A stretch of DNA of 64,000 bases from Ferrimonas sp. YFM. Its GTDB lineage: Bacteria > Pseudomonadota > Gammaproteobacteria > Enterobacterales > Shewanellaceae. The stretch is from NCBI RefSeq assembly GCF_030296015.1, contig NZ_AP027368.1:3706839-3770838 (forward strand). The letters are read 5' to 3'. A program made the position numbers and the translations under genes. The first letter of the stretch is position 1; each line of letters begins with the position of its first letter. This document shows, piece by piece, positions 5,746 to 8,882 of the stretch. The notes beneath the pieces were generated by a model. The model was not told the origin of the DNA. It saw only the letters and a list, made by a program, of their open reading frames with translations, and made no database searches.

Positions 5746-5778
5746 GATAAAAAAACGCCGGCAACAAGGTTACCGGCG
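5746..5778 (-). terminator. Strong intrinsic terminator of the three-peptide operon
   Basis: On the minus strand CGCCGGTAAC, loop CTT and GTTGCCGGCG form a 10-bp stem (one T-G wobble), followed by seven T. It lies about 100 nt after the last peptide stop and is oriented to end that transcript. It has no T-run on the plus strand. Confidence 0.9.
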
Positions 5779-5874
5779 CAAAGGATGACAAATGTTCGGC
5801 CTTACTCCGCCGGCCAAAGGGGCCGACGACACAGATGGGGTCCAATAACTGATGAAATTACACGAGGTTGATGC

Positions 5875-5964
5875 TTAGCGAGCGTAGTAGATCGCGGTCG
5901 CATTCCAGCTGGCGCTAGCCCAGCTGCCAATCAGATTCACAGAGTAATCGAATGGGGCGTTCAT
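5875..5964 (-). CDS. Small peptide A of a three-member paralogous array (29 aa)
   Basis: Translation is MNAPFDYSVNLIGSWASASW then NATAIYYAR. It shares 14 of 29 positions with both sister ORFs: M1, N2, F5, Y7, V9, L11, G13, W15, W20, N21, A22, Y26, Y27 and A28. The ATG has AGGAG eight bases upstream, the same spacing as in the sister genes. The aromatic/aliphatic residues alternate (5, 7, 9, 11, 13, 15), then a four-residue gap separates the two Trp; an amphipathic beta-hairpin is a fair inference. No signal peptide, Cys, or recognisable leader. Function unknown. Confidence 0.8.
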   Translation of the reverse strand: MNAPFDYSVNLIGSWASASWNATAIYYAR

Positions 5965-6094
5965 AAGGCATTCTCCTAAATTCGTTGCAAACACAAATAA
6001 TGTGCAGTTCCTTGGCACAACGACTCAGTTCCTTGGAGAGTATGCTGCCTCAGCGCTTTGAGGCATGGGCGGCTCCGCCGCCAGAGTGGATTGC
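5965..6094 (-). promoter_or_regulatory. Structured leader of peptide gene A: twin AAGGA-loop hairpins
   Basis: Read toward the gene: a GGCGG/CCGCC hairpin (6082-6068), a TGCCTCA/TGAGGCA stem (6065-6046), then two small hairpins with 9-nt loops, CTC-CAAGGAACT-GAG (6038-6024) and TGTGC-CAAGGAACT-GCACA (6019-6001), then GTGTTTGCAAC and the ribosome site. The AAGGA loops fit the ANGGA-in-loop pattern of CsrA/RsmA sites. The same order of parts precedes the other two peptide genes. Confidence 0.7.
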
Positions 6095-6184
6095 TTAACC
6101 GGCGTAGTAGAGCGCAGATGCGTTCCAGTCGGTAGCAGACCAGGTGCCGTACAGGCGGACTTGGTATTCAAACTGGGTATTCAT
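6095..6184 (-). CDS. Small peptide B of a three-member paralogous array (29 aa)
   Basis: Translation is MNTQFEYQVRLYGTWSATDW then NASALYYAG. It has the same length and the same 14 invariant residues as peptide A; differences sit at the even positions of the first half and in the four residues between the Trp pair (SATD versus ASAS and SQGQ). AGGAG lies eight bases before the ATG. The start is 220 bp from that of peptide A and 219 bp from that of peptide C, so the array has a period of about 220 bp. Confidence 0.8.
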   Translation of the reverse strand: MNTQFEYQVRLYGTWSATDWNASALYYAG

Positions 6185-6307
6185 AGGGTGTTCTCCTAAA
6201 GTTGCTAACACTGATTGTCAATTAGTGGTGCGGTTCCCTGGCACAGCACTCGGTTCCTTGGAGACGCTTTGCCTCATCGAGGCAGGTGGCGGGCGTGCCG
6301 CCGAACG
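6185..6307 (-). promoter_or_regulatory. Structured leader of peptide gene B: twin GGA-loop hairpins
   Basis: Same order as the other leaders: GGCGG/CCGCC hairpin (6302-6288), GCCTC/GAGGC stem (6283-6271), then CTC-CAAGGAACC-GAG (6263-6249) and GTGC-CAGGGAACC-GCAC (6244-6228), then GTGTTAGCAAC and the ribosome site. One loop has AGGGA instead of AAGGA, still within the ANGGA rule, while the closing stem is kept. Confidence 0.7.
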
Positions 6308-6403
6308 TTACTTCTTGCCAGCGTAGTAGATGCTGGTGGCGTTCCACTGGCCTTGGGACCAGGAGCCGTACAGGGTAACGTCATAACCGAATGGGTAGTT
6401 CAT
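6308..6403 (-). CDS. Small peptide C of a three-member paralogous array (31 aa)
   Basis: Translation is MNYPFGYDVTLYGSWSQGQW then NATSIYYAGKK. This is the promoter-proximal member and the only one with a C-terminal KK. CGGAG lies eight bases before the ATG. The longer in-frame reading from 6490 crosses the leader hairpins and is not conserved in the sister units, so the ATG at 6403 is the start. Function unknown; conserved coding despite different synonymous codons supports a real peptide rather than a repeat RNA alone. Confidence 0.8.
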   Translation of the reverse strand: MNYPFGYDVTLYGSWSQGQWNATSIYYAGKK

Positions 6404-6559
6404 AATCTTTTCTCCGATAAAGTTGCTAACACCTAGTACAAGTGGTGCGGTTCCTTGGCACAGCGGTCTCGATTCCTTGGAGAAACTCACGTCTCAACCT
6501 TTGAGACGATGAAGACCAACTCGGTCCTTACTAGGGGGAGTTGCCTCCCGACAGTTGCT
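6404..6559 (-). promoter_or_regulatory. Structured 5' leader of the peptide operon
   Basis: In order from the promoter: GGGAG-GCAA-CTCCC (6549-6536, a GNRA-type tetraloop), GACC-GAGTT-GGTC (6526-6514), GTCTCAA-AGG-TTGAGAC (6507-6491), then the twin hairpins TCTC-CAAGGAATC-GAGA (6483-6467) and GTGC-CAAGGAACC-GCAC (6461-6445), then GTGTTAGCAAC and the ribosome site of gene C. Confidence 0.7.
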
Positions 6560-6587
6560 ATAATACCGATATGTAATTTTATTACAA
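6560..6587 (-). promoter_or_regulatory. Predicted sigma-70 promoter of the peptide operon, with an internal dyad
   Basis: On the minus strand TTGTAA (6587-6582) and TATTAT (6565-6560) are 16 nt apart. The spacer contains most of TGTAAT-TTT-ATTACA (6572-6586 on plus), a perfect dyad that could be an operator. The half TTTATTACA recurs at 6631-6639. Confidence 0.55.
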
Positions 6588-6806: not shown

Positions 6807-7667
6807 TCAGGTCTGACGCACCTGACTCATCAGCAACTCCTCAATACGACTCACCAACTCCCCCTGCAAACCGGGTCGATGCACCAGGTTGACAGACAAC
6901 CATCTGGCGCCAACATCGGCAAAAGGCGCCGTTGCCTCCCACTGCACATCGGAACGGGGGACCAGAGCATAGGCAAAACCGCCATCCACTGCTGACAACA
7001 GATTGTTCATGTCCGGCGTTGAGAGCACCTGTCGATGGTCTATCTTTAACTCCCTGAGATCGGCCAGCGCCCAATCGCGAACAATGCAGTCGTCGCTGAA
7101 CAGCGCCACCGGAGCCGGACCTGTCTCCACGGATACACGTCCTGACCAGACAAACTCCTCGCGCCACAGCTCAGTGCCCTGAGCGGCAGAGGCACATCCG
7201 GAGACGATGGCCATATCCAGCTCGCCCAGCGCCAGCATCGACTGCAACTCCCGGCTTCTTCGACAGAAGACGCTGAGCTGAAGCTTTGGGAAGTGCTGAG
7301 CCAGGGCCACCACGACTCTCTGCAGCAGAGCCGGCAAATAGTCACTGGGGATGCCCATTCTCAGCGCCCCGGTTAACTGAGGCTGACCTATGGCAGAGAG
7401 GGTGGCGGCATTGAGATCCACCAACCGCTGAGCGTACTCCTTCAATGTCTCACCCGCCGGCGTCAGCTGGATTCCCTGATTGGTGCGGGTCATCAATCTG
7501 GTGCCCAGATGCGCTTCCAGCTTTTTCAGCTGCATACTCACCGCCCCCTGAGAACGGCACACCCTGGCCGCCGCCGGCTTAAGCCCGCCACTGTGTACCA
7601 CCGTCAAGAAGGTCTTCAGCTGCTCCATGTCCAGCAGCGCCCTGGCATTCGGTTGCGATACGTCCAT
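6807..7667 (-). CDS. LysR-family transcriptional regulator
   Basis: A 286-residue regulator. The winged helix-turn-helix is at about residues 14-72 (MEQLKTFLTVVHSGGLKPAAARVCRSQGAVSMQLKKLEAHLG), followed by a substrate-binding domain (LTGALRMGIPSDYLPALLQRV). AGGAGAG lies three bases before the ATG at 7667, supporting this start over the inner Met14. It is divergent from the MDR oxidoreductase gene, the usual layout of a LysR regulator and its target. The peptide operon lies downstream on the same strand but has its own promoter. Confidence 0.88.
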   Translation of the reverse strand: MDVSQPNARALLDMEQLKTFLTVVHSGGLKPAAARVCRSQGAVSMQLKKLEAHLGTRLMTRTNQGIQLTPAGETLKEYAQRLVDLNAATLSAIGQPQLTGALRMGIPSDYLPALLQRVVVALAQHFPKLQLSVFCRRSRELQSMLALGELDMAIVSGCASAAQGTELWREEFVWSGRVSVETGPAPVALFSDDCIVRDWALADLRELKIDHRQVLSTPDMNNLLSAVDGGFAYALVPRSDVQWEATAPFADVGARWLSVNLVHRPGLQGELVSRIEELLMSQVRQT

Positions 7668-7690
7668 CTTCTCTCCTGATTACCACATCA

Positions 7691-7705
7691 TTTAGAAAAG
7701 CTAAA
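7691..7705. promoter_or_regulatory. Candidate LysR operator in the divergent intergenic region
   Basis: TTTAG-AAAAG-CTAAA is a 15-bp interrupted dyad between the lysR start and the MDR gene, with a related half (GTCTAAA) near 7730. LysR proteins bind short interrupted dyads of this kind (T-N11-A type); assignment is by position. Confidence 0.45.
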
Positions 7706-7790
7706 CAATGATACAGAACAATTCGTTTGTCTAAATCATAGCAGGCCACCTAGGCTTAATCTCAACGATTGCTTACCCAGGCCTGGTTTT

Positions 7791-8882
7791 ATGACTGACT
7801 CCCCCCTTCCCTGCACCATGAGCGGTGTGCTGCTCACTGGCCACGGTGGCCTGGACAGGCTGCAATATCGACGGGACCTGCCCGTTCCCAGGCCCGGCCC
7901 CGGGGAGGTGCTGATCCGCATCGGGGCCGCAGGCATCAACAACACCGACATCAATACCCGCATCGCCTGGTACTCCAAGGAGGTCTCCCAGGCCACCAGC
8001 GCCGGGGGAGACATTGGCTTCGAAGGCCTCTCCGGCGCCGATGGCACCTGGTCCGGCACGCCTTTGCAGTTTCCACGGATTCAGGGCGCCGATGGCTGTG
8101 GTGAGATTCTCGCGGTCGGCGAGCGGGTCGACCCCAAGCGAGTCGGCGAGCGGGTGCTGGTGCGCCCCATGCAGGATCCTCTGACGGCTGATGGCAGCCA
8201 CCTGATCACCTGGGGCTCGGAGTGCGATGGCGCCTTTGCCGAGTACGCCCTGTGCCGTGCGTCAGAAGCCTATAAAATAGACAGCCCCCTGAGCGACGCC
8301 GAGCTGGCCTCCTTCCCTTGTGCCTATTCCACGGCGGAGAACATGCTGCACCGGGCCAGGGTCCGGGCCGGGGAGCGGGTGCTGATCACCGGCGCATCCG
8401 GTGGTGTCGGCTGCGCCGCCATGCAGCTGGCGGTGCGCCGCGGCGCCGAGGTGTGGGCCGTCACCTCCGCCCACAAGGGGCCCGCCCTGCTCAAGCTGGG
8501 CGCGGCTGGGATCATCTGCAGAGAGCAGCCCCTGGCCGAACAGCTCGAAGGAAACAGCCTGGATGTGGTGGTGGATCTGGTGGCCGGCCCGGAGTTCGCG
8601 ACTCTGCTTGAGGGGCTGAAACCCGGAGGACGCTATGCGGTTGCCGGCGCCATTGCCGGTCCCCTGGTAGAGTTGGACGTGCGCACCCTGTATCTCAAAG
8701 ACCTGACCCTGCTCGGCTGCACCGCACAGCCCAGGGAGGTGTTCGAAAATCTGCTGCGCTATATAGAGGCGGGGGAACTGCTTCCCCAGGTCGCCAACAC
8801 CTACCCCCTGTCCGAAATCCATCAGGCTCAGGAAGCGTTCCTTAGCAAACAACATGTGGGCAAGCTGGTGCTGATCCCCTGA
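7791..8882 (+). CDS. Zinc-independent MDR-family alcohol dehydrogenase / quinone oxidoreductase-like protein
   Basis: A 363-residue medium-chain dehydrogenase. The GroES-like N-terminal domain has GEVLIRIGAAGINNTDINTR and GADGCGEILAVGERV; the Rossmann domain has ERVLITGASGGVGCAAMQLAVRRGAEVWAV near residues 195-225. The usual structural zinc cysteines are missing, which points to the quinone-oxidoreductase branch. The ATG at 7791 or the internal ATG at 7818 could start translation. Likely controlled by the divergent LysR; substrate unknown. Confidence 0.85.
   Translation: MTDSPLPCTMSGVLLTGHGGLDRLQYRRDLPVPRPGPGEVLIRIGAAGINNTDINTRIAWYSKEVSQATSAGGDIGFEGLSGADGTWSGTPLQFPRIQGADGCGEILAVGERVDPKRVGERVLVRPMQDPLTADGSHLITWGSECDGAFAEYALCRASEAYKIDSPLSDAELASFPCAYSTAENMLHRARVRAGERVLITGASGGVGCAAMQLAVRRGAEVWAVTSAHKGPALLKLGAAGIICREQPLAEQLEGNSLDVVVDLVAGPEFATLLEGLKPGGRYAVAGAIAGPLVELDVRTLYLKDLTLLGCTAQPREVFENLLRYIEAGELLPQVANTYPLSEIHQAQEAFLSKQHVGKLVLIP

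Follow-up and report, generated by a model that had tools for sequence, protein, structure and literature searches.

What three very short, closely related open reading frames (ORFs) encode, and how their expression might be controlled, is the question raised by positions 5746-6587 of the 64,000-nucleotide stretch of the Ferrimonas sp. YFM genome analysed here (the window). The ORFs lie on the minus strand and encode peptides of 31, 29 and 29 amino acids with 14 residues invariant in all three; translation and alignment exactly reproduced the ORFs and the invariant residues listed in the first-pass annotation. They form a single transcription unit with a promoter-like site (6587-6560) and a terminator-like site (5779-5755) at its ends, and the GGAG of the Shine-Dalgarno sequence (SD) is separated from the ATG by 8 nt in each unit (Table 1). 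Promoter, terminator and matched spacing had been described as framing the set, and all were located. Consensus scans by themselves found one promoter against 1.1 expected from shuffled sequence and one terminator against 1.6, neither above chance, and support for the two calls therefore comes from their conservation in other genomes. The intergenic parts are repeated as well (three units, 237 aligned columns, mean column identity of 75%), with the best-conserved stretch outside the ORFs lying around TCTCCAAGGAAYYGAG and TGTGCCARGGAAYYGCAC, and every ORF is preceded by a separate copy of a two-hairpin RNA leader. No fourth copy was found when the same genome was searched at the protein level.

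Table 1. Features of the three-unit array, in window coordinates
Feature	Position	Strand	Remark
HexR-type palindrome TTGTAATAAAATTACA	6572..6587	-	overlaps -35 hexamer TTGTAA (6587-6582); relatives have similar boxes upstream of the first ORF
-10 hexamer TATTAT	6560..6565	-	spacer of 16 nt
5' end element	6536..6549	-	Shewanella hairpin at the equivalent place covaries
Unit 1 hairpin A, CUC-CAAGGAAUC-GAG	6468..6482	-	
Unit 1 hairpin B, GUGC-CAAGGAACC-GCAC	6445..6461	-	
Unit 1 Shine-Dalgarno GGAG	6412..6415	-	8 nt before ATG
Microprotein 1, 31 aa	6308..6403	-	
Unit 2 hairpin A, CUC-CAAGGAACC-GAG	6249..6263	-	
Unit 2 hairpin B, GUGC-CAGGGAACC-GCAC	6228..6244	-	
Unit 2 Shine-Dalgarno GGAG	6193..6196	-	8 nt before ATG
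Microprotein 2, 29 aa	6095..6184	-	
Unit 3 hairpin A, CUC-CAAGGAACU-GAG	6024..6038	-	
Unit 3 hairpin B, GUGC-CAAGGAACU-GCAC	6002..6018	-	
Unit 3 Shine-Dalgarno GGAG	5973..5976	-	8 nt before ATG
Microprotein 3, 29 aa	5875..5964	-	
Intrinsic terminator	5755..5779	-	terminator-like hairpins and T runs after the ORF in relatives

All 14 Ferrimonas genomes carry the locus. A profile of the three window peptides found matches in 12 of them, including that of strain YFM, F. futtsuensis and F. sediminicola; a wider peptide profile added a thirteenth (G011), and the fourteenth (G010) was reached through a covariance model of the leader by a locus (L123, E 0.48) that contains the promoter box, three ANGGA hairpins and the ORF. 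The triple array occurs in only five of the 14 genomes. Two adjacent complete units, both preceded by a promoter box of their own, are present in G002; the two loci of G011 lie apart, G010 has a single copy, and protein searches found one divergent copy in each of the six others. With E values up to 1, the leader model (R1) had matches in 86 of the 152 family genomes, and it missed three of the 14 Ferrimonas genomes (G001, G003 and G013). R1 was built on an RNAalifold structure, and its E values therefore reflect mostly sequence; for the Ferrimonas leaders RNAalifold gave a structure other than the two-hairpin one, with one double-changed pair. An ORF of 29-34 codons with the look of the family was found in 53 of the 54 R1 loci that were read, 52 being of a Shewanella type (e.g. 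MSYTGNGKIYWQNTWFADVTVLRGGIFAMKF) and L123 of the Ferrimonas type; no ORF was obtained for L124. The search of related Ferrimonas and Shewanella genomes that the first-pass annotation had proposed recovered peptide relatives in which the frame is kept, as well as the leader-model loci.

The genus that bears the Shewanella-type loci, labelled g2, is taken here to be Shewanella. Among 394 genomes of the order, a profile of the Shewanella-type peptide matched 26 of the 29 listed g2 genomes (best E 2.7e-15 or lower) and none of the four Ferrimonas genomes among the matches listed; elsewhere in the sample it matched 13 genomes at E values of 0.004-0.047, judged by E value alone. The Ferrimonas peptide profile likewise gave no credible Shewanella match. 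A second leader model (R2), made from Shewanella-type leaders with no Ferrimonas sequence, matched 26 of the same 29 listed g2 genomes and all four listed Ferrimonas genomes, the window locus being the sole match in its own genome (E 2.6e-5), and gave four matches elsewhere in the sample at E values of 0.06-0.1. Profile-profile alignment places the two peptide branches in register (NTW...GG[MI]FAMK), and this alignment is weak (E 0.0048, probability 7%). Since the peptide profiles miss each other and the alignment between them is weak, the kinship of the branches rests first on place, promoter and leader. In either genus, the majority of the loci checked have genes for an M17 peptidase and an NCS2 permease beside the unit; the peptidase was identified by Pfam in the window and in L009 and the permease by Pfam in the window, and some loci were too short to contain the neighbours. 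Four weak profile matches outside Ferrimonas and Shewanella (L059-L062, E 0.004-0.008) and weak matches within the family or order (L043-L046, L050, L052, L055, L057 and L023) were read, and none has promoter, leader and matching ORF together; L042, also a weak profile match, is a true member. Viral sequences scanned with the window peptide profile and plasmids searched with one Shewanella-type peptide yielded nothing. At this sensitivity, and within the 394-genome sample of the order, the family looks restricted to the Shewanellaceae. In the 3' part of the window transcript (5755-5874) and in Shewanella-type 3' regions (e.g. L088 after position 1690), CAUCAACCUU-like and pyrimidine/CCCC stretches precede the terminator and are possible base-pairing seeds.

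In relatives from other species the frame is intact and synonymous sites are the more variable ones, which indicates that the ORFs are not chance occurrences. Comparison of copies and orthologues, as the first-pass annotation had suggested, gave pS of 0.39, pN of 0.15 and dN/dS of 0.30 for the Shewanella set (232 pairs, L123 being among the records) and 0.38, 0.16 and 0.34 for the Ferrimonas set (59 pairs). These values are pooled over equal-length pairs that differ by less than 35% and are not independent, and because the pairs share history dN/dS is read as a trend and not as a formal test. With a pooled dN/dS of about 0.3, the microproteins lean to purifying selection, in keeping with the original view of the ORFs as translated small proteins. 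The third codon position is the most variable in three of four length classes; the fourth (11 sequences) is flat, with values of 0.458, 0.403 and 0.449 at the three positions and no third-position excess. The first-pass annotation had allowed that the RNA hairpins might be conserved and the peptide not. Within genera both are kept, so that this does not hold there, while between genera the leader RNA is better conserved than the peptide.

A small beta-hairpin had been proposed as the fold. AlphaFold2 does predict a two-strand hairpin for the window peptides (strands 8-16 and 19-27), and with a mean pLDDT of 67 the prediction is suggestive at most. Neither peptide branch has a family match in Pfam or NCBIfam. 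PHROGs gave no credible match (best E 0.13), nor did the PDB, where the best hit of the Ferrimonas profile was to an adhesin (E 0.025) and the Shewanella-type profile had none. Searches of the open-access literature, with peptide fragments among the queries, found no paper on these microproteins. The family of about 30 residues in Shewanella and its relatives thus appears to be undescribed, as had been supposed from the sequence pattern. Of the roles considered at the outset, that of a regulatory peptide survives. None of the present observations points to a membrane-active peptide. A precursor modified by dedicated enzymes is disfavoured, as no modification or export gene is present among the four neighbours identified, which encode the NCS2 permease, a LysR-type protein, an alcohol dehydrogenase (ADH) and the M17 peptidase.

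The promoter provides a first indication of what such a peptide might respond to. The HexR-type box found there, the CsrA-type ANGGA hairpins of the leader and the Shewanella loci had all escaped the first-pass annotation. The -35 hexamer forms part of a HexR-type site, and the TGTAATNAAATTACA-type operator at the microprotein promoter agrees with the HexR motif given as TGTAATTAAATTACA in the available text of PMC11906056. Searching the 4.66-Mb genome for the exact palindrome TGTAATNNNATTACA gave three places, and a reversed control pattern gave none. Besides the microprotein promoter, these places are upstream of a gene (L063) whose best NCBIfam model is the bifunctional acetaldehyde-CoA/alcohol dehydrogenase AdhE, the gene extending partly beyond the edge of the locus, and upstream of gpmM (L065), which encodes a phosphoglycerate mutase by NCBIfam and Pfam. 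One gene of the genome exceeds the RpiR-HTH cut-off; it is situated between zwf/pgl and pykA, and its score of 521 bits against the NCBIfam HexR model (cut-off 296) identifies it as hexR. A loose pattern found the box in 50 of the 53 inspected loci, and the remaining three are one base off the box of the window. These three (L089, L104 and L121) are absent from the counts over 50 leaders given below, in which the Ferrimonas locus L123 is included. Because the box overlaps the -35 hexamer, HexR is predicted to repress the promoter. The operator motif, the hexR gene and the identical boxes at adhE and gpmM liken the locus to the HexR regulon as described in PMC3223726 and PMC11906056, from which it differs in encoding a small ORF, a kind of target not mentioned in the available text of those papers.

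The leader between promoter and ORF points to a second regulator. Each ORF in the window is preceded by sequences able to form CUC-CANGGAAYY-GAG and GUGC-CANGGAAYY-GCAC. When hairpins were counted as stems of at least 3 pairs closing a loop of 5-9 nt that contains ANGGA or AGGA, the window transcript had six ANGGA hairpins against a mean of 1.03 in 500 shuffles (maximum 4). Taken singly, leaders 1-3 have two hairpins each, a number equalled by 20, 6 and 4 of 500 shuffles. Fifty other leaders (49 of the Shewanella type and L123) have a mean of 2.5 hairpins against 0.23 when shuffled. In an alignment of 27 distinct Shewanella-type leaders, loops H2, H3 and H4 each read A-N-G-G-A in 27 of 27, with N being A, G, C or T, and loop H1 contains AGGA in 25 of 27, with variable flanks. 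This alignment (A7) holds 27 of the 31 unique main-type leaders, the near-duplicates L082, L086, L091 and L143 being omitted, and is also without 13 records of an alternative type or from Ferrimonas and without L118 and L120. In Ferrimonas leaders, N in 47 occurrences of CANGGAA is A in 32, G in 10, C in 4 and T in 1. A conserved core with variable N and flanks is the pattern of CsrA/RsmE sites, for which the available text of PMC7652899 gives a consensus with an ANGGAN loop.

In the proposed leader structure 96.8% of cells are paired, versus 27-47% when it is slid. The inner stems are nearly invariant, with double changes at two pairs only; the hairpin at the 5' end covaries more clearly, one of its pairs being AU in 21, GC in 15 and GU in 11 of 49. 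In four of six leaders the minimum-energy fold lacks hairpin A, the CUCC arm of which is paired with the SD. Masking of the SD GGAG by the CUCC arm of H2 was considered as a candidate switch: all 71 of 71 units can form the 4 bp, and the flanks show no covariation (permutation p 0.72, G009 units excluded). It is possible that such a switch exists and that CsrA could open it. The SD sequences themselves (UCGGAG, UUAGGAG and UUUGGAG) contain no ANGGA site, unlike many CsrA-repressed leaders, and a CsrA-type site overlapping the SD, usual for repression, was not found in the leaders examined. This disfavours the simplest form of CsrA repression and leaves bridging, activation, control of stability or sequestration of CsrA. 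Like the CsrA-controlled leaders of glgC and ymdA as described in the available text of PMC7652899, the leader presents GGA in short hairpin loops, several per leader, upstream of the ribosome-binding site. It differs from them in that its SD has no CsrA-type site, its loops span about 9 nt (6 being described there as usual), a microprotein is encoded downstream, and duplication in the window has included the leader along with each ORF.

Sequestration deserves attention as an explanation of the whole locus. The RNA could be the main product, a HexR-controlled multi-hairpin mRNA that titrates CsrA much as CsrB does and couples this to KDPG, with the ORFs secondary or serving to stabilise the RNA. 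By the hairpin test used above, the CsrB RNA of the same genome scores eight, against six for the window transcript; both hairpins are retained in every triplicated unit, the RNA outlasts the peptide between genera, the SD offers no ANGGA site, and an mRNA of Campylobacter has been tied to control of CsrA activity (available text of PMC4894983). Against this, 13 of the 50 leaders retain a single strict ANGGA hairpin, selection on the peptide tends to be purifying, and the Rfam CsrB model has no match at the locus, so that a primary role in titration is judged rather unlikely. Rfam gave no family match to the leader in the window at gathering scores or at seven further loci, and RF00018 is absent at the locus. 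CsrB and CsrC (RF00018) share with it the arrays of GGA hairpins and the connection to carbon-related control; the present locus has fewer sites, a conserved ORF after the hairpins, a HexR-type box instead of a UvrY box and no Rfam match. The CsrB RNA of strain YFM (86 bits, G000:C1:3695428-3695726, L095) is some 17 kb away from the peptide locus. In G009, G005, G002, G001, G011 and G013 the best csrB match is on the same contig as the peptide locus at a distance of 17-36 kb, four of these six matches being below the Rfam cut-off, and in G010 the two are on different contigs; over eight genomes RF00018 exceeded the cut-off in three. A search for csrB through its UvrY box found two places with one mismatch against one for the reversed control, and there was no csrB-like array at the place examined. 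At L066 (1201-1560), TAGCATGGGTGTCCATGTAAG is repeated beside a putative transposase gene.

What is observed, then, is a conserved HexR-type operator, ANGGA motifs in hairpin-capable sequence, a small ORF, a mostly conserved place and repeated duplication of the whole unit. Central carbon metabolism in Shewanella is subject to both HexR and Csr. The reading preferred here, with a probability of just under 0.6, is that the locus specifies a HexR-controlled microprotein mRNA whose translation or stability is further controlled by CsrA and which probably tunes carbon metabolism, the window representing the Ferrimonas branch of a Shewanellaceae family of 29-34 residue microproteins. KDPG, an intermediate of the Entner-Doudoroff pathway, would release HexR from the operator and allow the mRNA to be made. 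CsrA would most likely bind the ANGGA-loop leader and control translation or stability of the small ORF, and the product would then be present only under conditions that satisfy both sugar catabolism and the Csr system. The last step is the weakest: by analogy with VcdP, the probable target of the microprotein is an enzyme or transporter of central carbon metabolism. In the five Ferrimonas genomes with the triple array, dosage would be higher, and a leader is retained with every copy. More tentatively, the transcript might be dual-functional throughout the Shewanellaceae, being made in response to KDPG through HexR, titrating or reading out CsrA, and encoding a microprotein of beta-hairpin fold that would reset an enzyme of central carbon metabolism, with whole units duplicated several times. 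For Shewanella, which serves as a model of respiratory electron transfer, the preferred reading would add an apparently undescribed gene family and offer a precise, testable link between KDPG sensing and CsrA, and the target of the microprotein can be sought in tractable strains.

The analogy is with VcdRP of Vibrio cholerae, in which, according to the available text of PMC8672173, a 29-aa peptide (VcdP) encoded by an mRNA under CRP control raises citrate synthase activity. Both are short mRNAs with a 29-aa ORF, a promoter under a carbon regulator and their own terminator, and the tuning of central carbon metabolism shown for VcdP is the role proposed, by likeness, for the microprotein. The likeness is one of description; the box is of the HexR type here and VcdRP is under CRP, and an ANGGA hairpin leader is not mentioned in that text. 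The same features could be taken further, to an RNA of the VcdRP or SgrST kind in which the peptide acts on an enzyme while part of the transcript, such as the 3' region, base-pairs with mRNAs for sugar uptake. The CAUCAACCUU-like and pyrimidine/CCCC stretches do recur in the Shewanella-type 3' regions (every third alignment row viewed), but they are variable and less pronounced in the window, and the described regulator of VcdRP is CRP and not HexR (PMC8672173), which together make this reading improbable. A dual-function mRNA is also part of the Campylobacter CsrA network, as far as the available text of PMC4894983 describes it, and the locus is not filed as a member of either system.

The NCS2 permease gene, which is the first gene after the unit in the window and is close to it in most loci checked, raises the alternative that the ORFs are leader peptides of an attenuation system for the permease. 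In the window, however, a terminator and more than 200 nt separate the unit from the permease gene, the ORFs contain no run of one kind of codon, and in G002 a complete unit is followed by a second one. Promoter, leader and ORF are also retained in copies that lie away from the permease gene: L042 adjoins a putative septation-type protein gene and a trpA-like frame, and L120, with two tandem ORFs and a second unit, has neither the peptidase nor the permease gene within the 2.9 kb of its locus. Attenuation is thus highly improbable. Between the M17 peptidase gene and the leader, the window contains a LysR gene and a divergent ADH gene (6807-8882); the F. futtsuensis locus L034, in which the peptidase gene is nearer, gave no match to LysR, which suggests an insertion or a loss. 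Upstream of the dispersed G011 copy, L042 has two frames with a long identical stretch (219-470 and 773-1018, reverse-complemented), a local DNA repeat that may have helped to spread this copy.
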